Assembly (NCBI RefSeq): GCF_003971255.1
Contig: NZ_CP034660.1
Location: forward strand, 744,001 to 808,000
Origin: Colwellia sp. Arc7-635
GTDB lineage: Bacteria; Pseudomonadota; Gammaproteobacteria; Enterobacterales; Alteromonadaceae
Direction: 5' to 3'
DNA: 64,000 nt
The notes under the pieces are model-generated. The model ran no database searches. It was not told the DNA's origin and saw only the letters and a list, made by a program, of their open reading frames with translations. Numbering within the stretch: the first letter of the stretch is position 1; every line of letters starts with the position of its first letter. Both the position numbers and the translations under genes were made by a program. Shown in pieces: positions 4,133-56,903 of this stretch.

Positions 4133-4906
4133 ATGGCATCATCGAGAAATCTCATTGCGCTTAAAAGTATTCTTAATAAAGAAATACAGCGTTTTATGCG
4201 CATTTGGATACAAACGCTGGTTCCGCCAGCCATTACTATTAGTTTATATTTTGTTATTTTCGGCTCGTTAATTGGCTCACGTATTGGTGAGATGGGTGGC
4301 TTTGATTATATGTCATTTATTGTCCCAGGCTTGATCATGATGAGTGTTATTACTAACTCATACTCTAACGTAGCTTCGTCTTTTTTCAGTGCTAAGTGGC
4401 AACGAAACGTTGAAGAAATGCTCGTTGCTCCAGTACCCAACTGGGTTATTGTTGCCGGTTATGTTGGTGGCGGTATGGCGCGTGGCATGTTGGTCGGTGG
4501 TATTGTTACTATTGTAGCGATGTTTTTTGTTGATATACAAATTCATAATATTTGGGTCATCATTGCTACGGTTGCATTAACCTCTGCTACCTTTTCTTTA
4601 GGTGGCTTAATTAACGCTATTTTTGCGGGTAGTTTTGACGATATTTCAATTATTCCAACCTTTATACTGACGCCATTAACCTATTTAGGCGGGGTGTTTT
4701 ATTCGATTAGTTTGTTACCTGAATTTTGGCAAGGTGTGTCGCAAATCAATCCTATTGTTTATATGGTTAATGCCTTTAGATACGGATTTTTGGGTATATC
4801 AGATGTTAGTTTAACCTTGTCGTTTGGCGTGTTAGGCGTTTTTATTGTTAGTTTATACACCATTGCTATGGTGTTAATTACTAAAGGTATTGGCTTAAGA
4901 AGCTAA
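4133..4906 (+). CDS. ABC-2 type exporter permease (YadH-like)
   Basis: Inner-membrane partner of the ATPase just upstream. It has 257 residues with an N-terminal amphipathic segment and six hydrophobic segments: about 25-45, 60-80, 105-135, 140-165, 170-190 and 225-250. The order and the TPLTYLGGVFYSISLLP segment before the last third are typical of ABC2 membrane proteins such as YadH. A hypothetical protein of this size needs a dimer plus two ATPases to make a transporter. The gene is 5 nt from its partner, with the ATG clearly placed. The transported substrate is unknown. Confidence 0.87.
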   Translation: MASSRNLIALKSILNKEIQRFMRIWIQTLVPPAITISLYFVIFGSLIGSRIGEMGGFDYMSFIVPGLIMMSVITNSYSNVASSFFSAKWQRNVEEMLVAPVPNWVIVAGYVGGGMARGMLVGGIVTIVAMFFVDIQIHNIWVIIATVALTSATFSLGGLINAIFAGSFDDISIIPTFILTPLTYLGGVFYSISLLPEFWQGVSQINPIVYMVNAFRYGFLGISDVSLTLSFGVLGVFIVSLYTIAMVLITKGIGLRS

Positions 4907-4930
4907 GTCGTTTTGTAGTGAAATTTCTAG

Positions 4931-4961
4931 GTAAATAAGTAAATAAGTAAATAGGTAAAGG
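4931..4961 (+). repeat. Short tandem repeat, 8-bp unit GTAAATAA, before the TrmB-like gene
   Basis: Units at 4931-4938, 4939-4946 and 4947-4954 (last base G) are followed by GTAAAGG, which carries the likely Shine-Dalgarno (AAAGGTA) of the gene starting at 4964. Changes in copy number would alter the leader but not the reading frame. Confidence 0.7.
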
Positions 4962-4963
4962 TA

Positions 4964-5653
4964 ATGACCGAGATAGAAATTACAGGTGACTCGAAAGCGA
5001 TTGTCACTAATCAACCGGGTATACATGAAAAATTGGTTGAGATTGTTAATAAACATGTGACGCATCCGTCGCAAAAGCCGATACAAGCGCATACTCAACA
5101 AGCTTTTGATGAGATTAATGCCATTGTGCAAGCTTTTTCAGGTGAGATTATTTTAGACTCATGTTGTGGTGTTGGCCAAAGTACTCGGTTATTAGCAAAG
5201 CAAAATCCAGCAGCGTTAGTGATAGGGGTTGATAAATCAGCCCACAGAATTAACCGTAATGTTGATGAAGTTGAGCAGGATGACGGTAAAGGTAAGGTTG
5301 AAAATTATCACTTAGTGCGCGCTGACTTAAATGATTTTTATCGTCTTGTTGTTGCTGCTAATTGGCCAGTGGCTAAGCATTATATTCTATATCCTAATCC
5401 TTGGCCAAAAGCTAAACATGTGCAACGACGCTGGCACGGTAGTGCGGTTTTTCCACAAATTATTGCCGTAGGAGAAGAAATTATTCTGCGCAGTAATTGG
5501 CTACTTTACTTAGAAGAGTTTCAGCTAGCGGCGGATGTTTTATCTTTTAAAGGCGATATTTCAACGGTAAACGTTACTCAGCCTTTAACGCCGTTTGAGG
5601 CAAAGTTTCATGCCAGTGGTCAGCAGTGCTGGCAGTTGCATATTATTAAATGA
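4964..5653 (+). CDS. TrmB-like SAM-dependent methyltransferase (tRNA m7G46 methyltransferase family)
   Basis: A class I SAM methyltransferase of 229 residues related to TrmB, which methylates G46 of tRNA at N7. Visible motifs are the glycine motif ILDSCCGVGQST near 59-70 with GVDKS following, and YPNPWPK near 145, which matches the YPDPWPK motif of TrmB. The N-terminus is shorter and the C-terminus more divergent than in standard TrmB, and the gene sits behind an ABC exporter instead of in the usual mutY neighbourhood. It may be a second, divergent copy whose substrate differs. The gap to the permease is 57 nt and holds the 8-bp repeat, so co-transcription is possible. Confidence 0.72.
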   Translation: MTEIEITGDSKAIVTNQPGIHEKLVEIVNKHVTHPSQKPIQAHTQQAFDEINAIVQAFSGEIILDSCCGVGQSTRLLAKQNPAALVIGVDKSAHRINRNVDEVEQDDGKGKVENYHLVRADLNDFYRLVVAANWPVAKHYILYPNPWPKAKHVQRRWHGSAVFPQIIAVGEEIILRSNWLLYLEEFQLAADVLSFKGDISTVNVTQPLTPFEAKFHASGQQCWQLHIIK

Positions 5654-5678
5654 AAATAAGCCATATCAAATAAAGTAC

Positions 5679-5717
5679 TATATCAGTAGATTAGCTTTCT
5701 GCTTTTCTACTGATATA
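5679..5717 (+). terminator. Hairpin downstream of the TrmB-like gene
   Basis: A perfect 12-bp inverted repeat (5679-5690 with 5706-5717) has a 15-nt loop and starts 26 nt after the stop codon. It probably ends the exporter/methyltransferase transcript; the tail is A-rich rather than a T-run. Confidence 0.4.
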
Positions 5718-5889
5718 AATAAAAACAATATATTGGTTAAATTCACAAAAAGTTAGCCAATATATACAATCTCTATTATTCTCATACCTTCGTAAAAATC
5801 TATTTTTATTTTAAATTTCAATTGTTTACATTTTTGGCTTGGAACTTGATATAGCTTAAGTATATTAACTGTGATTTAGGATGAATAAC

Positions 5890-5988
5890 ATGACTAACAA
5901 TATTAAAAAAACTGTATTTATGATGGCGTTGAGTAGCTTAGCAATTGTTGAATTAGCTTTAGTTTATGTAGCGACGTTAGTGGGTTAA
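5890..5988 (+). CDS. Possible small single-span membrane protein (32 aa)
   Basis: A short open frame runs from ATG 5890 (alternative ATG 5881) to TAA 5986-5988. AGGA at 5878-5881 is well placed for the 5890 start. The peptide has a short lysine-containing N-terminus followed by about 22 hydrophobic residues (VFMMALSSLAIVELALVYVA), as in small inner-membrane proteins. No domain is recognised. It stands alone in the 685-bp gap between the methyltransferase gene and panP. Support is only the ribosome site and the hydrophobic profile. Confidence 0.4.
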   Translation: MTNNIKKTVFMMALSSLAIVELALVYVATLVG

Positions 5989-6042
5989 ATTAGGATAAAT
6001 TTAACTGCTATAAATAATATGCATTTAAGTTCTAATCTTGAG

Positions 6043-6136
6043 CCATTAATTTTATACCGATTGAAGCTATATGCTCTGCAGTGATATTACGTATGAGCGC
6101 TGATTGATGTTTTCGGTATCGCAGTAAAATTAATGG
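6043..6136. other. Long dyad, possible structured RNA or repeat remnant
   Basis: Outer arms 6043-6054 and 6125-6136 are a perfect 12-bp inverted repeat. Inner arms 6055-6060 and 6113-6118 add 6 bp, with a 6-nt bulge on one side. The element is 94 bp and lies upstream of panP. It might be a folded leader, a small RNA or a decayed miniature element. Confidence 0.35.
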
Positions 6137-6338
6137 GACTGTAAAAATAAGGAGTAGACTCCCTTAACGGCAGGTACAAGCCAAGCTCTCGTTCGTTAAA
6201 TTAAGTTAACTTTTCGTTAAAATTTGTTATAAAGCTGAACTTTGGTGGAAATAACGAGACTTTTGACTCATTTTTTATTACAGTGCCGCACTTATATAAA
6301 TCAACTTGCTTAAGGCAAGTCGTTAATAGTGAATAAGT

Positions 6339-7967
6339 ATGACGGTGAGTAAACGCGCGGCAAAAGTTTCTGAAGAGTCTCTACATCGCATTTTTACCAT
6401 TCCTGTTGCGCCCGATTCTACATTGGGTCGAATAGAGAGTGAGATATCGCAGAATTTAGCGGGTTTCCTAGGCGCGCACATCGCGGCAACGGAACAAGCG
6501 TTAAGCGTGATTGAAAAAGATTTTTCCAATTCGCAGATCCCTGAAGAGCCTGCGTTTGTTTCTGATCACATGCACCACTTACTTGATAAGCTGGTGTCTC
6601 AGTCTGTTCATACCTCAAGTCCAAATTTTATTGGTCACATGACTTCAGCTTTACCTTATTTTATTTTGCCGTTATCAAAACTGATGGTGGGCTTAAATCA
6701 AAACTTGGTAAAAATTGAAACATCTAAAGCATTCACTCCAATGGAACGACAAGTTCTGGGTATGATGCATCGTTTAGTGTATCAAGATGACGAACCTTTT
6801 TATCAACAGTGGATGCATAGTGCCAATCACTCGTTAGGTGCGTTTTGTTCTGGCGGTACTATCGCGAACTTAACCGCACTTTGGGTTGCTCGTAACAATA
6901 TGCTTAAGCCTGATGGTGATTTTAAAGGAGTCGCACGCGAGGGCTTGTTTAAAGCGCTTAAACACTATAAATATGATGGCTTAGCTATTTTAGTCTCTGC
7001 TCGTGGTCATTATTCACTGAAAAAGTCGGCCGATGTTCTCGGTATCGGGCAAGACAGTGTTATTTCTATTCCTACAGATGAAAACAACCGAATTAATTGT
7101 GAACTGCTAGAGGCTAAGTGTCAGCAGTTAGCCGATGAAAATATTCATGTACTTAGTATTGTCGGCGTTGCAGGCACTACCGAAACTGGTAATATTGATC
7201 CGCTAGAGAAAATGGCTGCAATTGCTCAACGCTATGGCGCACATTTTCATGTTGATGCCGCTTGGGGCGGAGCAACGTTATTATCAGATAAGTACCGACC
7301 TTTACTTAAAGGTATTGAATTAGCCGACTCTGTGACTATTGATGCACATAAACAGATGTATGTACCGATGGGCGCAGGTTTGGTTGTCTTTAAAAATCCG
7401 GCCTCAGTGGCGGCAATTGAACATCATGCTGAATATATTCTACGTAAAGGCTCGAAAGATTTAGGTAGTCATACCTTAGAGGGCTCGCGCCCTGGTATGG
7501 CAATGTTAGTTTATGCTGCTTTACATGTTATTAGTCGTCCGGGCTATGAAATGCTGATTAATACCAGCATTGAAAAAGCACAGTACTTTGCTGAGTTAAT
7601 TACGCAGCATGAAGATTTTGAGCTGATCACAGCGCCTGAATTATGTTTGCTAACGTATCGCTACAATCCTGCATGTGTACAAAAATTGCTAGCGAATGCT
7701 GATAATTCACAACAAGAAACTATCAATGTTTTACTCGATAAACTGACGAAGTTTGTGCAAAAGCGTCAGCGTGAAAATGGCAAATCATTTGTTTCTCGTA
7801 CTCGTATTGAAGTGCAGAGATATCAGGGCCGTAAAACTTTGGTATTTCGTGTGGTTCTAGCGAACCCGCTGACCACAAAAACTATCTTACAAGACGTGCT
7901 AGCTGAGCAAGCTTTGCTAGCTCAAGAAAGCGAAACTTTTTTACCTAAATTATTGGCGATGACTTAA
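6339..7967 (+). CDS. panP: PLP-dependent aspartate 1-decarboxylase PanP
   Basis: A group II pyridoxal-phosphate decarboxylase that makes beta-alanine from aspartate for pantothenate synthesis. Many marine gammaproteobacteria carry this instead of the pyruvoyl enzyme PanD. The protein has 542 residues, the usual length. The PLP-binding lysine is K338 in DAHKQMYVP, preceded by HVDAAWGG with the cofactor-binding Asp306 and by CSGGTIAN near 170. The long N-terminal extension of this subfamily is present. The gene is convergent with panC and panB, which supply the other half of the pathway, supporting the aspartate assignment over glutamate or diaminobutyrate decarboxylase. No strong Shine-Dalgarno is visible before the ATG. 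Confidence 0.85.
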   Translation: MTVSKRAAKVSEESLHRIFTIPVAPDSTLGRIESEISQNLAGFLGAHIAATEQALSVIEKDFSNSQIPEEPAFVSDHMHHLLDKLVSQSVHTSSPNFIGHMTSALPYFILPLSKLMVGLNQNLVKIETSKAFTPMERQVLGMMHRLVYQDDEPFYQQWMHSANHSLGAFCSGGTIANLTALWVARNNMLKPDGDFKGVAREGLFKALKHYKYDGLAILVSARGHYSLKKSADVLGIGQDSVISIPTDENNRINCELLEAKCQQLADENIHVLSIVGVAGTTETGNIDPLEKMAAIAQRYGAHFHVDAAWGGATLLSDKYRPLLKGIELADSVTIDAHKQMYVPMGAGLVVFKNPASVAAIEHHAEYILRKGSKDLGSHTLEGSRPGMAMLVYAALHVISRPGYEMLINTSIEKAQYFAELITQHEDFELITAPELCLLTYRYNPACVQKLLANADNSQQETINVLLDKLTKFVQKRQRENGKSFVSRTRIEVQRYQGRKTLVFRVVLANPLTTKTILQDVLAEQALLAQESETFLPKLLAMT

Positions 7968-47982: not shown

Positions 47983-48801
47983 CTACTGATTAAATACTCC
48001 TTGTGCAATTAAATATTTGCGCCAGTGCTGCCAAAGCTCTTCTATTGCTGGCTTGCAGTAATCGTTTTGCTTAATTAATACTTTTTTGGTCTTTGCAATA
48101 TCTTGTTCATTCAATAAGGTTTTGATAAACAAATGTTGACCGTAATTTAAGTCTATTAGGCCTAAACGATAGTTGCGTCGAATGATTAAACCATAGCTTG
48201 TTTTGGGCTGTGCAAGCTCAGGCTGTTGTTGGGCATTAAATGCTCGGTAATATTCTAGAATAGGGTGTTTATGGCACAGAAGTTTACATACAGGAACTAA
48301 ACTTAATTGTTTGTCAGGTGTATCAAACTTTGCTTGTATTTGCTCATGGTCTAATACGCTATTGGGTATTTCTTGATCAAACAAGTGATTTAAATCAGCT
48401 TCAAAATCAGCTAGTTCAATCATAAAATCAGGCCAGTCTTCTTTTACTTCTTGTTCGGCATCGGGGCGCGTTTGCTGTAAAAATTGACTGAAATCGTCTC
48501 CAAGGTTATTCAAACTATAATGCTTTGATGGGTAGCTATGTAAATACTGCTGCACAAACAGTTGGAAAATTTCATCGCCTAAAGCAAACTTTAAGGCACT
48601 AAATTGATTAGCCATACATTGTTGTAGGCGCATGACATAGCTGCGCTGATAGATCCCCAAATGCGCTTTAGCCGACATTCTAGCTGATGAATTTATTTCT
48701 TTGTTAACAAAATCTTGTTGTTGCTCTTGTAACCTCGAGCTTAATAATATTTGCTGGATTTCCACTTGTAGCATTGATAATGAACGGTTGAATAGAACCA
48801 T
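47983..48801 (-). CDS. DUF2063 protein, MNIO partner (HvfC/BufC-like)
   Basis: A 272-residue partner protein of DUF692 enzymes, thought to bind the peptide substrate and present it to the enzyme. The N-terminal domain shows ARMSAKAHLGIYQRSYVMRL, QFSALKFALGDEIFQLFVQQYL and YSLNNLGDDFSQFL, the DUF2063 pattern. The C-terminal part (about 150-270) holds the less conserved beta-rich region. Its ATG at 48801 overlaps the DUF692 stop (TGATG), so the two are translationally coupled. It is the last gene of the operon. Confidence 0.88.
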   Translation of the reverse strand: MVLFNRSLSMLQVEIQQILLSSRLQEQQQDFVNKEINSSARMSAKAHLGIYQRSYVMRLQQCMANQFSALKFALGDEIFQLFVQQYLHSYPSKHYSLNNLGDDFSQFLQQTRPDAEQEVKEDWPDFMIELADFEADLNHLFDQEIPNSVLDHEQIQAKFDTPDKQLSLVPVCKLLCHKHPILEYYRAFNAQQQPELAQPKTSYGLIIRRNYRLGLIDLNYGQHLFIKTLLNEQDIAKTKKVLIKQNDYCKPAIEELWQHWRKYLIAQGVFNQ

Positions 48802-49829
48802 CACTTTTCTCCCTCACAAGCGTGAAAACGATTTTTCTCGTTAACGATAAAGTCTAGCGGATTAGATAACGGGTACTGTTGAGTAACAGCCTGTTGACGC
48901 GCCCACTTTTGTTGAAAAAAATCGTTGGGTAACTTGGCCATAAATTGTTTAGCTTTTAACAGTTCTTGGTGATAAACCTCAAAGGTAGGAATATTTCCGT
49001 CCCACTCTAAGCTGGTCGCGCAGCCATTGGTTAACTGCCAAGCTAAATTAAATAATTCCCATACGTCTGGGGTTACTGCACTGTCGTGGGTATCCACAAT
49101 ATGATCGCCACAGTGTTGATGCCCAGCTAAATGCATTTGCACTATGGCGTGATGCGGCAAGCCTTTGATATAGGTAATCGGGTCAAAGTCATTATTAAAT
49201 GCCGATACGTAGACATTATTGACATCTAGCAGCATACCGCAGCCAGTGTCAGCGATTAAGGCACTAAAATACTCCCATTCAGGAATGGTCGACTGGGTAA
49301 AGCTTAAGTAAGAGCTAGGGTTTTCTAGTATTAAAGGTCGCTCTAAAATGTCTTGTACTTGCTTAACGCGAGAGCTTACATGTGCCAAAGACGCTTCGGT
49401 TAATGGTAAAGGCAATAAGTCGTGAGTATTTAAGCTCATCGCACCGGTCCAGCAAAGATGATCACTGACCCATGCTGGTTTAATTTCGTCGATAAGTTGC
49501 TTAAGCTTGGCTAAATAGTCGAGATTTAGTGCATCTGTACTGCCAATAGATAAAGACACGCCGTGCATAACAATAGGATAATGCTCTGCTATTTGTCGTA
49601 AAATATGGCGTGGTCGTCCACCAGAGTCGATAAAATTTTCAGAAATAATTTCAAACCAGTCAACATCAGGTTTATTTTCTAAAATGGTATTAAAGTGTTG
49701 GCTGCGCAAACCAAGACCAAGACCAAGACCTAGGTTAGTTCCAGTTTTGGCCTTAGTCTTTATCTCTGTATCTGTCATCTGTGCTGCTGACTGCGAGCAT
49801 ATATCAATAATATTAGTCGTTTTTAACAT
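48801..49829 (-). CDS. DUF692 multinuclear non-heme iron oxidative enzyme (MNIO; HvfB/BufB-like)
   Basis: A TIM-barrel iron enzyme of the family that modifies cysteine or other residues in ribosomally made peptides (MbnB, TglH, bufferin BufB). The 342-residue protein has ligand-type motifs in order: WFEIISENF near 58-66, PIVMHGVSLSIGS near 84-96, WVSDHLCWTG near 118-127, LLPLPLTEASL near 137-147, LENPSSYLSF near 170-179, LLDVNNVYVSAFN near 199-211, HLAGH near 232-236, DTHDSAV near 244-250 and LEWDG near 272-276. The N-terminal tail has LGLGLGLGLR, coded by hexamer repeats at 49711-49734. It starts 2 nt after the Cys-rich gene, its likely substrate. Confidence 0.9.
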   Translation of the reverse strand: MLKTTNIIDICSQSAAQMTDTEIKTKAKTGTNLGLGLGLGLRSQHFNTILENKPDVDWFEIISENFIDSGGRPRHILRQIAEHYPIVMHGVSLSIGSTDALNLDYLAKLKQLIDEIKPAWVSDHLCWTGAMSLNTHDLLPLPLTEASLAHVSSRVKQVQDILERPLILENPSSYLSFTQSTIPEWEYFSALIADTGCGMLLDVNNVYVSAFNNDFDPITYIKGLPHHAIVQMHLAGHQHCGDHIVDTHDSAVTPDVWELFNLAWQLTNGCATSLEWDGNIPTFEVYHQELLKAKQFMAKLPNDFFQQKWARQQAVTQQYPLSNPLDFIVNEKNRFHACEGEK

Positions 49830-49831
49830 GG

Positions 49832-50455
49832 CTATTTCTTGCTATCACAATCACATTCTTTCAAGGTGTCTTGTAACTCCTCTCGACTGCGTTCAACTAA
49901 TGCTTGTGTGTTTTTCGCTGGGCTATTAAAGCCAAATGAGCAAGATTTATCACCTGAACTACCACACGAATCGTATTCTCCAAAGGTTTCTAACCAAGCT
50001 TGTGGAGGTCCTGCGGTAAAAGGAGCATCACCGACATTACGACGTGCTTTGTTCATGCGTTGTTCAAACAATTCTCGGGCAAGTAACCAAACACTTTTAT
50101 TTTTATTAGCGGCAAGGGTACCAAAGCGCTCGGCTTGAATCGGTGTGGCGCAGCTACCTTGCCAAGCGCAATCATTTGCTCCTGGCTTACATTGCTCTGC
50201 AGCATCGCCAAATAATCCGCAACCTCCTTGTCCTGCACAGTTATTCAATGTATGGCAAACATGCTTTTGCGTTGCACAATAACCCGTACCGGCACAATTA
50301 TTACTACCGAAACGGTCATGGCTTTTACAAGCGTTTAAGCCCATGCAGGCATGTAGCTCTAATGGTGTTTTTATATCAGTAGTGTCGCTTTTAGGAGCGT
50401 TTGCGGGTTGGCCACCACAGCCATTGCTTAAAGGTTTATCTTTTAATATCGACAT
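49832..50455 (-). CDS. Cys-rich protein with C-x5-C repeats, probable MNIO substrate
   Basis: A 207-residue protein with 15 cysteines and no signal peptide. GAGGA stands 7 nt before the ATG. Ten cysteines between 37 and 102 form a regular series in which pairs are six apart: 37-43 (CMGLNAC), 54-60 (CAGTGYC), 67-73 (CHTLNNC), 73-79 (CAGQGGC) and 96-102 (CAWQGSC). Further Cys are at 13, 89, 164, 172, 201 and 203. The CxGLNxC and CAGQGGC patterns recall Cys-rich peptides encoded beside DUF692 genes in bufferin-type metallophore operons. It is 2 nt from the DUF692 gene and 28 nt after the ferritin-like gene. A structural metal-binding protein is the alternative. Confidence 0.8.
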   Translation of the reverse strand: MSILKDKPLSNGCGGQPANAPKSDTTDIKTPLELHACMGLNACKSHDRFGSNNCAGTGYCATQKHVCHTLNNCAGQGGCGLFGDAAEQCKPGANDCAWQGSCATPIQAERFGTLAANKNKSVWLLARELFEQRMNKARRNVGDAPFTAGPPQAWLETFGEYDSCGSSGDKSCSFGFNSPAKNTQALVERSREELQDTLKECDCDSKK

Positions 50456-50483
50456 GTATCTATCCTCTAAAGGTTGACTAGGT

Positions 50484-51848
50484 TTACGCCATTAATGGGC
50501 TTTTTGATTTTTCTAAAAAGCCTTCTAGTGCAACATCGGGTAAATCTTTAATGCGCTGTTCAATATAGGCTATGCCGCTATAGCCTCCTACGGCTTGATT
50601 GAATAGCGCGATAATTTGCGATTTAGGCGTAGATGCTGCATTAAATTGATACTCTTCGTAAGTGGCTGTTGCTGCGTATTGTTTGCCGTCAGAACCGATA
50701 TAAGTAAAACCGGTCATTTCGCCACATAATGAACTCAGGATCCAAAGCATGGTTTTATGAATACCAAACATAAATATTTCAAATTGAGTATGTTCATCAG
50801 CTCGATAACAGGCTTGAGACATGATAAAAAGATAGCTGTAAACGGCATTTGTTAAGGTCGAGACCGCGGCAATGGCAACAGGGTAATCCGCTGTTTTGGC
50901 ATTATCTGCAAAGTTATAAATAAAAAATTTATCTACTGCCATGCTTTTACCAAATACGGTTTGAAATTCTTGTCTAATAGCGGCTAATTCGTCTTGTAGC
51001 TGAGCGAACTTATAATAATGCGCTAATTCATGATGCGAGGTGTCATCATCAGAGCCTTCCCCAGCGCCTTCTCCTTGCTCAACAATAATAGCCAGTGCGG
51101 CAAGAGCACTCGTTTGATCAACAACATGAATTAAACCACCTGCATCGGCTGCATTTTCATAAACGGGTTGATGGTTTTTATCGTAATAAATGGTGTCGAT
51201 ATTATTTTGTGCGTAATACCCACGATTAGGAACTAGTTGCGCGCGGTCGGGGTGGTAATGTTTTTTATCACCATAGTGTTGTTTAATACAGCGCTCTATA
51301 CTTTTGTAGAATTCCCCTATGGTTAAATAAGGAATAGCTTTAACGTTTGCTAGCACTTTATCGAAAGATTTAGGGCTTTCAATGAGTTTAAATGTTTCTA
51401 GCTGTTCGTGACTTAGCTTGGCGCGATTAATCGGAAAGGCTGGCTCATGACCCGCTAAATAAGCTGGCCACACAGTAGGAGACTTATTGACGAGATCAGG
51501 ATCGCCAAACATAGCCTGCTTCACATTGGCCGCTAACGACATATGCAACATTTCTTCAACCAGCACGCTCATTACGTTGGCGCCGGCTTTATTAGCGAAT
51601 ACCATTATCTTTGAGGAATACTTTATCGATTGAGTAAGGGCTTGTTGTTCGTTTAAGCCTTTAGCCAGAAGTATCTCTGTGAGCTTTGCTGCTATTGGTG
51701 CTTGTTTGGGGGTGCGATTAATCGAGTAGTAAGTTGATAAATAGGTGGGTAAGGTCGCAATCTCTATTTCTATGGCCTGTTGCAAGGCTTTATTCATATT
51801 TTCAGGCGTTATTTCTGTCACGCCACTTTTCAAAAAGTGAGTTTGCAT
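50484..51848 (-). CDS. VioB-type ferritin-like protein (iminophenylpyruvate dimer synthase-like domain)
   Basis: A 454-residue protein, starting at ATG 51848 with AAGGA 7 nt upstream. A longer frame to 52025 lacks a ribosome site. The N-terminal ferritin-like four-helix region has ALQQAIEIEIATLPTYLSTY near 21-40 and NVMSVLVEEMLHMSLAANV near 94-112, with the ExxH-type iron residues in EEMLH. The middle (IPYLTIGEFYKSIERCI) and C-terminal parts follow the domain layout of VioB/RebD, which couple indole-pyruvate imines. No violacein-type genes are nearby. As first gene of an operon with a DUF692 enzyme and a Cys-rich protein, it may act on the same peptide or on iron supply. Confidence 0.78.
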   Translation of the reverse strand: MQTHFLKSGVTEITPENMNKALQQAIEIEIATLPTYLSTYYSINRTPKQAPIAAKLTEILLAKGLNEQQALTQSIKYSSKIMVFANKAGANVMSVLVEEMLHMSLAANVKQAMFGDPDLVNKSPTVWPAYLAGHEPAFPINRAKLSHEQLETFKLIESPKSFDKVLANVKAIPYLTIGEFYKSIERCIKQHYGDKKHYHPDRAQLVPNRGYYAQNNIDTIYYDKNHQPVYENAADAGGLIHVVDQTSALAALAIIVEQGEGAGEGSDDDTSHHELAHYYKFAQLQDELAAIRQEFQTVFGKSMAVDKFFIYNFADNAKTADYPVAIAAVSTLTNAVYSYLFIMSQACYRADEHTQFEIFMFGIHKTMLWILSSLCGEMTGFTYIGSDGKQYAATATYEEYQFNAASTPKSQIIALFNQAVGGYSGIAYIEQRIKDLPDVALEGFLEKSKSPLMA

Positions 51849-52129
51849 TTGCGTGTCCTTGTTATAAAAAATCATGGTAAACATACGGTTATTTATTTTT
51901 ATACCGATTGTTTTTCTGCTCTCTACAATCTTTATCTCTACAATGTCTTTGGACAAGGCAACTAGATAATGTAACGGAGATAAATTAATTTTCACTGTAG
52001 GCGCACCAAAAAGAGGCCAACACAAAACAATTTTTCCTGCATAGTTTACGGTCTAAATTGTTTATTAATGTCGATTCTTATAACGCCAATTTTCCTGCCC
52101 AAACAATAGACATAAACAGCAGGTAAAAA

Positions 52130-52764: not shown

Positions 52765-53784
52765 ATGGCCGCTTTAATTAATAACCAAACTCAACAACAT
52801 TGCCTATTACAGTCGCATCATAGTTTTGGCCGACTTAAAAGTTCGGTTAATTCTTTTATTGCTGATGCCGTTGTTTCTAAAGTACATGCTTTTATTGAAT
52901 GGCATGGTCAGCATTGGATTCTGCGCGATGTTAGCAGCAATGGCACCTGGCTTAATGGCAATAAACTGGCTGGCGATAAAGTGGCACAACTGAATGTTGG
53001 CGATGTGATTAACTTTGCTAGCAAATCGGGTTATGCCTTTGAAGTGCACGACATAAATCCACCTTGTGATTGTTTAATTCCTGTTGAGCACGAGAGTGAG
53101 GCGATCGAGTTAGAATATTTCCATTTATTACCGAGTGAAAAGTCAAACAAAAGAGTACTAAGTTACAGTAACCGTACCTATTCGTGGTGGCAAGAGACCC
53201 TTGATGACAACTTAAGCCAGTCAAGCATGGCGGCGGAATTGAATGATCAAGAGTGTTTAGATATTGATGGCCTAACGTGGCAATTACAAATAAACCGCAC
53301 CATTGCTGATACACAATTGCTCAGACCGAGTGTTACCTCACTTGATGAATTAACTTTTTTGTTTCAAACCAGCTTAGATGAAGAAAGCACTCATGTAGTG
53401 ATGCAAAGTGGTGAAGAACATATTGATTTACTCACCCGCAGTCACCATTACCTTACCCTTTGTTTAGCGCGTCAACGGGCTAAAGATATGCAAGCAGGTT
53501 TAGATGACAGTGAGCAAGGTTGGGTCTATGCTGAGCTACTAGCGAAAGATTTAGGTTTTGATGCTAGTCACTTAAATATTCAAATTTACCGTATGCGTAA
53601 ACAATTTGTTGATGCTTTAAACAACACTTGCGAATCCAGTAATATTATTGAACGTAGCGCTGGAAAACTGCGTCTGGCGAGTAAGTTCTTTTGCATCACG
53701 AAGGGCGATAAAGTTGAGTGTGATACCCGTCAGTTTTCTCAGCAAAACCTTAGTCAGAGCGCTGAGCAATACACTAATCATTAA
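52765..53784 (+). CDS. FHA-domain protein with OmpR/PhoB-like winged-helix C-terminus
   Basis: A 339-residue soluble protein. Residues about 14-92 are an FHA phosphothreonine-binding domain (FGRLKSSVNSF, VSKVHAFIEWHG, LRDVSSNGTWLNGNKL, LNVGDVINF). Residues about 225-317 resemble the winged helix of OmpR/PhoB-type or SARP regulators: LTLCLARQRAKDMQAGL, GWVYAELLAKDLGFDASHLN, IQIYRMRKQFVDAL, and IIERSAGKLRLA, where the family has IxTvxGxGYRL. So it could bind DNA and be controlled by a phosphoprotein. AAGGA lies 7 nt before the ATG. The Ser/Thr kinase gene follows on the same strand, 282 bp later and after a terminator-like hairpin. Confidence 0.8.
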   Translation: MAALINNQTQQHCLLQSHHSFGRLKSSVNSFIADAVVSKVHAFIEWHGQHWILRDVSSNGTWLNGNKLAGDKVAQLNVGDVINFASKSGYAFEVHDINPPCDCLIPVEHESEAIELEYFHLLPSEKSNKRVLSYSNRTYSWWQETLDDNLSQSSMAAELNDQECLDIDGLTWQLQINRTIADTQLLRPSVTSLDELTFLFQTSLDEESTHVVMQSGEEHIDLLTRSHHYLTLCLARQRAKDMQAGLDDSEQGWVYAELLAKDLGFDASHLNIQIYRMRKQFVDALNNTCESSNIIERSAGKLRLASKFFCITKGDKVECDTRQFSQQNLSQSAEQYTNH

Positions 53785-53807
53785 ATAATTTGTCGGTATT
53801 TTTAGTG

Positions 53808-53839
53808 AAGCCATGCAATGAATATTGTATGGCTTTTTT
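53808..53839 (+). terminator. Terminator between the FHA and kinase genes
   Basis: AAGCCATGCAAT pairs with ATTGTATGGCTT (one G-U pair) around GAAT, followed by a run of T. It lies 24 nt after the FHA gene stop, so the kinase gene probably has its own promoter in the remaining 226 bp. Confidence 0.7.
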
Positions 53840-54065
53840 ATTATTTACTGTAGATTATCTACTTTAGTTTCAGCACTGTAATCGTGTCATAAGTTTTACT
53901 GCTCGGTCCTTATTTTCTTGTGACTGTTTTCTAGTTATTGTTTTCTAGTAATGACTACCGAGAAATAAGCGTTAATAAGTAAAAGTCGACATCTTGCTAT
54001 CATCATGTGATCATTGCTTTATAACAATAAAGCGCAGTCAAGCATTGACTTGATATGGTCAGACA

Positions 54066-56903
54066 GTGAAAAAAACAAAGCCCGTTAATCAGCCTAACCA
54101 CATAAGTAACACTAATCACAGCGATGACGTAAGTCAGAACTGTGACACTATTGCTATATCTGTAGCGGATACCTTGTGTGATCAGCCAACGTTGCTTTCT
54201 GATGATCAACAAGCAGAAAAGTTAAAACAAAGCAGCATGGCGCACTTTAAAATTATCGACATTTTAGGTAAGGGCGGCATGGGCGCAGTCTATAAAGCGA
54301 AAGATCTGGCTTTAGAGCGCTTTGTTGCCATTAAAATGCTTCGAATCAGTGATGCTAATCAACCTTTAATACTGGCTGAAGCTAAAACCATTTCTCAACT
54401 TAACCACCCTAATATTGTCACGGTTTATGATATTGCCCGTGATGGCGATGCTAATTTTATTGTTATGGAATGGGTTAATGGTCTGCCACTGGATCGTATG
54501 ATCCCCCCGCAAGGATTGGCGCTAAAGGTGGTTGTTGATTATGCTAAGCAAATGGTCGCGGCTTTAGCATGTGCCCATCAACAACACATTATTCATCGTG
54601 ATATTAAACCACAAAATATTATGGTAGATATTAATGGCCGCATTAAAATACTCGACTTTGGTATTGCTGCACTTATTGATCCCAATAAAGCTAAAATAAC
54701 GCCTTCAGCAGTGCAAGCGTCGTTTGCTGACGATAATCTTGTTGCTGAAGAAATTAAGCATCACACGCTACCAAGTCGTATTGAAGGTTCGCCACAGTAT
54801 ATGTCGCCTGAGCAAGTACTAGGACAAGCAAGTGATGCGCGCTCAGATTTATTTTCTCTCGGCATTGTTTTATATGAAATGCTAACAGGTGTTAAACCTT
54901 TTTTAGGCTTGAATTTACCGCAAATTAGACAGGCTATCAGCCTTGGCGAATATACTCCTTTAGCCGACGTTGCAGCTGAACGTAAGGCTGAAGCTAAGAC
55001 TGAGAATAAGATAGAGAGTAAGGCAGAAGGTAGTACTGAACAAAAATTAAAATTACCCGCTGAACTAATCGCTGTTGTTGACAAGTTATTACAAACAGAA
55101 CCATCAGCACGCTATCAAAATGCGACAGATTTAGCACAAGACATTGATATTATTGATCGTGTTATCAACCATAAAAAAAATTGGTGGCAACAACAACATT
55201 GGTTAATCAAAAGTTTATTAATTATTCCTGTCATCGCTACATTAGCGTGGAGTACGCGCAGCATTTTATTTCCGCCTAGCACTCAAGAGTTGATTGCTCG
55301 ACAGCTAGTTGAAGCGAAGAAAATTGCTTTTTTACCGTTCGAAAATATTAGTGGCGATCCGGTGTTACAAATATTTAGTGATGGTATTGCCACTATGCTC
55401 AGTAGTGATTTAGCCGAAGTAGGTTATCAGCAAGGTGATGGTAGTACTTGGGTATTACCCGCCAGTGAAATAAGACGCCTTGACGATCCTAGCGTCGCCG
55501 GTATTTATAATAAATATGGCGTAGATACTGTCATCACCGGCAGTATTCAACACATGGGCTCGACCCGCAGTTTGCATCTGAGTGTGGTTAATGGCAGCGA
55601 TGGCCGACAATTAAAGTCGCTGCAACTAACCCTTGATGCGGAAAATTTGTTTGCTGCGCAAAGTGAAATTCGCCAACAGGTGATCAAGTTACTCGGTTGG
55701 CAGATACCGGCAGCATTAAGCCAACAATTTGCCGCGCAACAACCGGCTTTTGATGGCGCTTATAAACATTACCTACAAGGGCAAGGCTATTTATATCGTT
55801 TTGATCATGGCGATAATATTAATAAAGCGCTGGCCTCGTTTCAGGCGGCGATTGAGCTTGACTCGAACTATGCTGATGCTTATGTGGGGTTGGCTGAGGC
55901 GCAGTTGCGTAGTTTTATTGAAATTAAAGACGTTAACTTGTTAGTGCCTATGGAAAATACGGTGGCTCAGTTAACAGAAATAGATAGCAGGCACCGCTTA
56001 CTGAGTTACTTAGAAGGTGAACTCAAACTTAACCAAGGGGATTATGACCATGCGGTTAAACTATTTAGCAAAAGCATTGATTTACAGCCCAATTTTTTAA
56101 CTGCTTACACAGGGATCTCAGATGCCTACATACAGCTTGGTGAACTGGTAAAAGCTGAACAATTTTTACTAAAAGCCAATAAGTTAATGCCTAATAATAA
56201 TTCGGTGCTAGCAAATCTGGGGGCTTTTCATTTTAATAATGGGAATTATAATCAAGCGCTTGAGTACTTTGAGCTATTATCACAGCAAGCTCCAAATAGC
56301 TATATTGCCTATCTTAACATTAGTGCTTGTTATTACCTTAATGGTGATATCAATCAAGCGATTTTAGCGGCTGAACAATCAATAAGCCTGCAACCTAATG
56401 CAGATGGTTTTGCAAATATTGGTACTGCTTATTTTTATTTAAAAAATTATGATAGATCAATTGCTGCGTTTGAGCAGATGATTGCTTTAAATGATAGCGA
56501 TTATATTAATTGGGGGAACTTGGCAGATGCCTACCGTTTTGCTAAAAATGATAAATACAAAGCGACCTTCCAAAAAGCAATCAACCTTGCTGAAGATGCG
56601 CTGACGCTTAACCCTAATAATAAGAATGCCATTGCCTCATTGGCTTATTACTATGCTAACCTTGAAGATATTGAAAAAAATAATTTTTATGCTAATAAAA
56701 TTATTGCCAGCGATACTGGTGCTGATAATTTTTTAATTGCTGCCGCTTATGCCCGTCTAAAAATGAACCAAGCGGCACTGAGTTACTTAAAATTTGCTAT
56801 TAATAATAATTACTCTATTACTGAAATTAAAAACTCACCATTGTTTAATAATTTAAAAAATGAGGATGAATTTCAGCAATTAATAGCTAAAGACTCAAAA
56901 TAG
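54066..56903 (+). CDS. Membrane-bound Ser/Thr protein kinase with TPR C-terminus
   Basis: A PknB/Hanks-type kinase of 945 residues starting at GTG 54066. The kinase domain (about 60-330) is complete: glycine loop GKGGMGAVYKAKD, Lys90 (VAIKM), IIHRDIKPQN with Asp179, DFG with Asp197, and GSPQYMSPEQ. A transmembrane helix follows (about 378-402), then a TolB-N/CadC-type domain (KIAFLPFENISGDPVLQIFSDG, YGVDTVITGSIQ). TPR repeats fill about 565-940. The extracytoplasmic TPRs probably sense the signal. It is next to an FHA protein, the usual reader of Hanks-kinase phosphothreonine. Confidence 0.92.
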   Translation: MKKTKPVNQPNHISNTNHSDDVSQNCDTIAISVADTLCDQPTLLSDDQQAEKLKQSSMAHFKIIDILGKGGMGAVYKAKDLALERFVAIKMLRISDANQPLILAEAKTISQLNHPNIVTVYDIARDGDANFIVMEWVNGLPLDRMIPPQGLALKVVVDYAKQMVAALACAHQQHIIHRDIKPQNIMVDINGRIKILDFGIAALIDPNKAKITPSAVQASFADDNLVAEEIKHHTLPSRIEGSPQYMSPEQVLGQASDARSDLFSLGIVLYEMLTGVKPFLGLNLPQIRQAISLGEYTPLADVAAERKAEAKTENKIESKAEGSTEQKLKLPAELIAVVDKLLQTEPSARYQNATDLAQDIDIIDRVINHKKNWWQQQHWLIKSLLIIPVIATLAWSTRSILFPPSTQELIARQLVEAKKIAFLPFENISGDPVLQIFSDGIATMLSSDLAEVGYQQGDGSTWVLPASEIRRLDDPSVAGIYNKYGVDTVITGSIQHMGSTRSLHLSVVNGSDGRQLKSLQLTLDAENLFAAQSEIRQQVIKLLGWQIPAALSQQFAAQQPAFDGAYKHYLQGQGYLYRFDHGDNINKALASFQAAIELDSNYADAYVGLAEAQLRSFIEIKDVNLLVPMENTVAQLTEIDSRHRLLSYLEGELKLNQGDYDHAVKLFSKSIDLQPNFLTAYTGISDAYIQLGELVKAEQFLLKANKLMPNNNSVLANLGAFHFNNGNYNQALEYFELLSQQAPNSYIAYLNISACYYLNGDINQAILAAEQSISLQPNADGFANIGTAYFYLKNYDRSIAAFEQMIALNDSDYINWGNLADAYRFAKNDKYKATFQKAINLAEDALTLNPNNKNAIASLAYYYANLEDIEKNNFYANKIIASDTGADNFLIAAAYARLKMNQAALSYLKFAINNNYSITEIKNSPLFNNLKNEDEFQQLIAKDSK

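Follow-up and report, generated by a model that had tools for sequence, protein, structure and literature searches.

The genes considered here lie in a stretch of 64,000 nucleotides of Colwellia sp. Arc7-635 (contig NZ_CP034660.1, positions 744,001 to 808,000 of the forward strand), referred to below as the window; the host genome is a single contig of 4.74 Mb, and the nearest named relative found is Cognaticolwellia mytili. At positions 47,983-51,848, four closely packed genes on the minus strand encode, in this order, a ferritin-like protein, a Cys-rich protein, an enzyme of the MNIO family and a DUF2063 protein (Table 1). The first two genes are separated by 28 nt and the next two by 2 nt, while the MNIO stop overlaps the DUF2063 start by one base with an ATG start (TGATG) or by four bases with a GTG start, which reproduces the layout given in the initial annotation apart from the longer overlap with GTG. 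A longer ferritin-like open reading frame (ORF) beginning at a TTG at 52,025 is unlikely, as the closest relative, the C. mytili locus L006, has a matching Met. Compared with C. mytili, the ratio of nonsynonymous to synonymous substitution rates (dN/dS) is 0.060-0.088 for three of the genes, including 0.071 for the Cys-rich gene (dS 1.38), all rough values at a dS of 1.4-2.0; the DUF2063 gene gave no computable value. Purifying selection on three genes, together with a gene order that recurs in the loci of relatives, indicates that this is a cassette and not a chance run of genes. As a candidate defense system it was rejected, a PADLOC search giving no match at E<=0.01.

Table 1. Genes of the cassette, in window coordinates.
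Feature	Position	Strand	Details
Ferritin-like protein	50484-51848	-	454 aa from ATG; AAGGA upstream; PF12902, 130.8 bits
Cys-rich protein, candidate MNIO substrate	49832-50455	-	207 aa, 15 Cys; bufferin-like C-x5-C domain
MNIO (DUF692/MbnB_TglH_ChrH)	48801-49829	-	342 aa; PF05114, 351.6 bits
DUF2063 (PME-type 1) MNIO partner	47983-48804	-	272-273 aa (GTG 48804 or ATG 48801); PF09836, 58.6 bits

The cassette is rare, yet its composition is conserved across distant bacteria. When a five-row alignment of the Cys-rich protein was scanned against genome contigs, 91 stretches matched and 71 encode a relative, with hosts in Bacteroidota, Pseudomonadota, Acidobacteriota and Myxococcota. Adding L005, L078 and the window to these 71 gave the 74 loci analyzed (73 distinct, L078 being nearly a copy of L036); left aside were L001, L002, L004 and L077 (copies of loci under other identifiers), L003 (in genome G082, where ferritin-like, Cys-rich and MNIO genes are likewise present) and L079-L081 (matches of 19-20 bits). 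Since the scan was keyed on the Cys-rich protein, these counts are silent on how frequent the other genes are without it. The co-occurrence anticipated in the initial annotation is borne out, the ferritin-like gene being present in all 74 loci, and next to the Cys-rich gene in each, rather than absent from related operons. Iterated profile searches recovered the ferritin-like and Cys-rich proteins in 74 loci, the MNIO in 73 and the DUF2063 protein in 72, the misses falling in L072 and L067, both of which end at a contig end. A few frames are interrupted (ferritin-like in L037 and L075, MNIO in L075) or partial (ferritin-like in L071).

At the family level, the Cys-rich protein was found in 5 of 196 genomes, and among 398 genomes of Pseudomonadota it gave strong matches in two, including the window genome, and matches of 19-20 bits in three more. 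The ferritin-like profile matched 14 of 398 Pseudomonadota genomes, exceeding 500 bits only in the window genome and in G289, both of which carry the cassette; of the 12 weak matches only that in G447 has a Cys domain, with an MNIO and a DUF2063 gene in a longer stretch, while the remaining 11 PF12902-type matches have neither a Cys domain nor an MNIO in flanks of about 1.5 kb. MNIO genes themselves are more widespread, occurring at 69 places in 58 of 200 sampled Pseudomonadota genomes. Among the 32 places examined, mostly the best-scoring ones (29 new loci, the bufferin loci L082 and L084 of the window genome, and the window), a ferritin-like gene stands beside the MNIO only at the window and at L119 of G289. 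Of the remaining 28 new loci, judged by eye, 20 or more have an upstream bufferin-like ORF with an N-terminus resembling a signal peptide. Twelve host genomes were selected from the 71 (assembly completeness not given), and in three of them, Sphingomonas echinoides and Roseivirga thermotolerans included, no MNIO besides that of the cassette was found. A plasmid-borne form was sought and rejected: tblastn of the Cys-rich protein gave no match among 72,556 plasmid records, a collection from which neighbors of the window genome may be excluded.

The four genes are apparently inherited as one unit across these distant bacteria. Distance matrices of the four proteins correlate over 65 loci with r of 0.585-0.819, and 0 of 500 permutations reached so high a value for any of the six pairs, although kinship of the hosts inflates such correlations; eight rows with partial genes or copies were omitted here and from the identity comparisons below. 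On the MNIO tree, the betaproteobacterial Chitinibacteraceae nest among Bacteroidota (a set of 10 rows, support 98), and L005, from the window's own family, is placed remote from the window, next to alphaproteobacterial loci of the fused type. Together with the patchy distribution, these placements suggest that the whole cassette has moved by horizontal transfer.

The ferritin-like protein scores above the gathering threshold of the ferritin-fold Pfam family PF12902, which is common to the oxidative enzymes VioB and RebD. Its label in the initial annotation, VioB/RebD-type, holds at this family level, but the protein is not a VioB orthologue, as it scores 16.6 bits against a cut-off of 1250 for the NCBIfam model of VioB, the iminophenyl-pyruvate dimer synthase (TIGR04492). 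It is 23% identical to CC_0557 of Caulobacter (PDB 3hl1). Its invariant Glu and His residues (E29, E99, H102, E260, E274 and H277, and also E98, E157 and H364) fit a dimetal site. In 22 of the 74 loci (21 of the 73 distinct), the ferritin-like and Cys-rich parts form a single open frame with the ferritin-like part N-terminal, 674-755 residues long in the 19 fusions with chosen starts; one of the fused loci is L031 of Thalassospira. On the MNIO tree, the distribution of fused and separate states requires at least four changes. A divergent PF12902-Cys fusion followed by MNIO and DUF2063 genes was also found in G447 (L108, G447:C18:315000-330000, 4138-7818), with profile scores of 71.5 bits for the ferritin-like part, 24.7 for the Cys part, 399.2 for the MNIO and 119.2 for the DUF2063 protein. 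The fused architecture thus extends past the close family, and the G447 locus is possibly a second branch of the system. The initial annotation had a ferritin-like enzyme leading an operon for a possible ribosomal-peptide or metal-handling pathway, and its gene is indeed the first of the operon, but the frequency of fusion makes the protein more likely to be a carrier or partner of the presumably modified domain than just an initial enzyme in a peptide pathway.

The Cys-rich protein has the size and Cys count given in the initial annotation, which took it to be cytoplasmic, and its N-terminal hydropathy is low. Ten Cys columns, mostly with C-x5-C spacing, are kept in 73 or 74 of 74 rows, and an eleventh is almost invariant in a 43-row alignment; the Cys motifs are followed by a conserved stretch (around ATPINAERFST...SVW) that resembles a folded domain. 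The 49 unfused proteins are 155-231 residues long (chosen starts) with 11-17 Cys. In its aligned part, the Cys domain has a mean pairwise identity of 0.588, compared with 0.635 for the MNIO, 0.425 for the ferritin-like protein (66 rows each) and 0.432 for the DUF2063 protein (65 rows). It is thus nearly as conserved as the MNIO, unlike the variable core of a natural product. A Pfam search gave no match at E<=1, and the NCBIfam BufA2 model scored the window protein at 18.6 bits (E 0.0016), under its cut-off of 60. The same model nevertheless gave E<=0.01 for 33 of 43 relatives, with 3.7e-6 as the best value, and hhalign of the Cys domain against six BufA2-like precursors gave a probability of 91.6% over 33 columns. 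On these weak scores, bufferin BufA2 appears to have a distant, cytosolic relative in the Cys domain. Kin among solved structures were rejected, the 24 matches at E<=10 being stretches of laccases and copper oxidases with E>=0.22 that we judged to be chance.

By N-terminal hydropathy, no signal peptide is visible in most of the Cys-rich proteins, including that of the window, although no dedicated predictor was run. The maximum 12-residue hydropathy over the first 50 residues has a median of 0.92 and a maximum of 1.95 in 49 cassette proteins, versus 1.70-2.43 in nine bufferin precursors; it exceeds 1.6 in three cassette proteins (L018, L021 and L022), and in the latter two a later Met is the likelier start. 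The window genome also has two ordinary-looking bufferin loci, one Buf2-like, whose 12-Cys-type precursor has a lipobox-like start (L082, G000:C1:1496653) and one Buf1-like (L084, G000:C1:1350020). Both of their precursors start with a hydrophobic stretch, which the cassette Cys-rich protein lacks.

The window MNIO passes the NCBIfam BufB model (NF050167) with 350.3 bits against a cut-off of 310. A quickly built tree of 103 MNIOs places the 72 enzymes of the cassette on one side of a single branch with a Shimodaira-Hasegawa-like approximate likelihood ratio test (SH-aLRT) value of 75, and a branch with a value of 92 sets apart the cassette enzymes plus that of G447. The residue that follows the conserved E(W/R)D motif, the Asp of which is missing from one of the 72, is Gly in 54 of them, Asp in seven, Ala in four, Ser in four and Asn in three, while it is Phe in five loci of the EGKCG/EAKCG type with an LRR start. 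This position probably corresponds to a selectivity site that is reported to be Phe in enzymes of the Lys-Cys group and Asp in those of the Cys-Lys group (PMC12668002). The DUF2063 partners match PF09836 in all 66 cases scanned, making them PME-type 1. Their occurrence beside a Cys-rich protein without a visible signal peptide runs counter to a published correlation, in which PME-type 1 accompanies precursors that carry a signal peptide and PME-type 2 those that lack it (PMC12452194). We do not equate the P. pacifica locus L076 with the PME-type 2 example WP_006975235 (276 aa), as the starts considered for the L076 protein give 282 or 262 residues and this protein matches PF09836.

Among described systems, bufferins of the BufA2/Buf2 type (BufABC) share with the cassette an MNIO, a PME-type 1 partner encoded after it and a precursor gene directly upstream (PMC12452194), and the two also have in common the C-x5-C spacing and a C-x-x-(L/V/I)-N-x-C start. 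The cassette Cys-rich protein differs in being longer, conserved, without a visible signal peptide and paired or fused with a PF12902 protein. The captophorins (fontiphorin, oxazolin and gonophorin) likewise combine an MNIO-PME1 pair with a Cys-rich precursor, and there the pair installs 5-thiooxazole with a loss of about 4 Da per Cys, the fon cluster requiring only precursor, MNIO and PME1 (PMC12668002). Here the cassette differs in having a large conserved domain without EGKCG repeats as its candidate substrate, a ferritin-like partner and mostly Gly at the presumed selectivity site. A third comparison is adjamnio-I, listed in Table 2 of the bufferin study as signal-peptide-less proteins of 122-293 residues with 8-21 Cys, encoded before an MNIO (PMC12452194). 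The unfused cassette proteins fall within this range, and the Cys-rich protein by itself may overlap adjamnio-I, which is compared here by its length and Cys description; the major adjamnio-I organization has a PME-type 2 partner, in contrast to the PF09836 partners of the cassette.

The pairing of an MNIO with a ferritin-like protein was not found described in the literature searched, which left most subscription papers, bioRxiv and supplements outside. No paper there combined "MNIO" with "ferritin-like", and "ferritin" begins no word in the main text of PMC12452194 or PMC12668002. A paper returned for DUF692 and ferritin-like has the latter term only in its reference list (PMC8224329), pairing of MNIO, ferritin-like and VioB returned a violacein review alone, and ferritin-like and DUF2063 together returned a study of H. 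influenzae RpoE2 (PMC7907618). The initial annotation did not recognize this set from described systems, which agrees with the search result for the pairing; the Cys-rich protein, however, has weak, repeated matches to BufA2.

Beyond the four genes, no wider conserved cluster emerged. Neighbors scanned with Pfam numbered 101, mechanically picked as the nearest ORFs upstream (46 of 67) and downstream (55 of 65), and no family occurs in more than three of them, the commonest being Thioredoxin with three. In a clustering of the flanks, the sole further family in as many as 10 loci is nitrobindin-like, the next being ABC-ATPase-like (by eye) in seven. By hidden Markov model, a nitrobindin/THAP4-like beta-barrel gene is present in 12 loci, lying directly upstream of the ferritin-like gene on the same strand in eight (L026, L031, L050, L059, L060, L061, L069 and L070), directly upstream by the chosen start in L042, and also occurring in L011, L047 and L057. 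Most of these genes lie outside the 101-neighbor list and were scanned separately; five of the eight proteins scanned match PF08768, all under the gathering score. A cluster resembling Dyp-type peroxidases (by the Pfam match of L052, the sole member scanned) lies within about 8 kb in L019, L045, L051, L052 and L074. Single loci have a LanC-like gene directly upstream of the cassette (L045:4611-5972, with a nearly same-sized gene there in L051) or an EgtD-like histidine methyltransferase upstream (L046:4572-5909). In the window, FHA-domain and Ser/Thr kinase-TPR genes lie upstream at 52,765-56,903, a position kept in C. mytili, while the genes on the other side of the cassette have no match within the 16.6-kb L006 stretch, and DoxX was not found among the four window neighbors scanned.

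We give about an even chance to the reading that the operon produces and then matures a two-part metalloprotein in the cytosol, consisting of a ferritin-like dimetal protein and an MNIO-modified bufferin-like domain, and not a secreted peptide. Its basis is the conservation of the cassette, the fused loci, the relationships of the protein sequences and the lack of a visible signal peptide. One part would be a helical, ferritin-like protein bearing a dimetal site, and the other a bufferin-like Cys domain that forms a subunit of its own in the window but is the C-terminal part of the ferritin-like chain in about 30% of relatives. The DUF2063 partner would present the substrate to the MNIO, which, by analogy with the published chemistry of MNIO-PME1 pairs, would oxidize some of the conserved Cys residues while still in the cytoplasm, with 5-thiooxazole as the most likely product (minus 4 Da each). 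Without export, the modified domain would then stay in, or bound to, the ferritin-like protein. From fusion and linkage we infer a joint function, in which a thiol-rich metal site, for Cu(I) or another soft metal, and the dimetal site would together serve an oxidase-like or metal-handling reaction.

Several points weigh against this proposal. The proposed modification, metal and activity are predictions from sequence, and AlphaFold yields no usable structure of the Cys domain, the model of the window Cys-rich protein having a mean predicted local distance difference test (pLDDT) score of 57, too weak for a structure search. The BufA2 likeness is confined to short Cys-rich stretches, and 4 of 43 relatives also match the Cys-rich spore family CdeC, so that Cys content by itself may yield BufA2-like scores. 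The branch that separates the cassette MNIOs is weak, and with the predominance of Gly over Phe or Asp at the presumed selectivity site, substrate choice and even the product may differ. Among the 101 neighbors no metal-resistance family recurs, and the ABC-transporter-ATPase-like cluster leaves some room for export at the seven loci that it flanks.

A somewhat unlikely alternative gives the ferritin-like protein a tailoring role of its own, in which it would oxidize the Cys-rich precursor before or after the MNIO, with a modified protein or a cut peptide as the product. Enzyme-precursor fusions are known from borosins, and in the fused loci the ferritin-like part would similarly act on its own tail, as would suit an enzyme working in cis. 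Membership of an oxidative family, with its weak VioB match, the leading position of the gene and the invariant Glu/His set agree with such a role; yet no family of proteases or exporters turns up more than once among the 101 neighbors (the ABC-ATPase-like flanks notwithstanding), the aligned substrate domain varies little across phyla, and precursor, MNIO and PME1 suffice for the fon cluster (PMC12668002).

We consider it less probable still that the cassette is a cytosolic metal buffer, in which the Cys domain, once modified, would sequester copper or a different soft metal, supported by a ferritin-like protein that oxidizes or stores metal, for stress protection and not catalysis. The weak BufA2 homology would fit, as would the binding of copper by bufferins and other 5-thiooxazole peptides (PMC12452194; PMC12668002), and a cytosolic version could complement the two signal-peptide bufferin loci of the window genome. 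Such a buffer is harder to reconcile with the patchy, rare occurrence of the cassette, and no metal-resistance or sigma-factor family is represented more than once among the 101 neighbors. Least probable is that the Cys domain is no MNIO substrate at all and serves as a disulfide- or zinc-stabilized partner of the ferritin-like protein while MNIO and DUF2063 act elsewhere: its roughly ten invariant Cys, and the His and Gly conserved with them, might simply form a site for zinc or an Fe-S cluster, and the stretch that follows its Cys motifs looks folded, but it resembles the exported precursor BufA2, its gene directly precedes the MNIO as bufferin precursor genes do (PMC12452194), and the cassette MNIO is the sole one found in some host genomes.

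The furthest-reaching interpretation, which we regard as possible though doubtful, is that the MNIO is an enzyme maturase that forms Cys-derived heterocycles in a cytosolic ferritin-like oxidase, and thus a protein-derived metal cofactor beside the dimetal site. In that case, the chemistry of ribosomally synthesized and post-translationally modified peptides (RiPPs) would be used to finish a conserved metalloenzyme and not for a peptide product. MNIOs are known chiefly from small, often exported RiPPs, while in this cassette a cytosolic domain, either fused to a ferritin-like dimetal protein or paired with one, is the likely substrate. Should its Cys residues prove to be modified, MNIO chemistry would be extended from peptides to the maturation of metalloenzymes.

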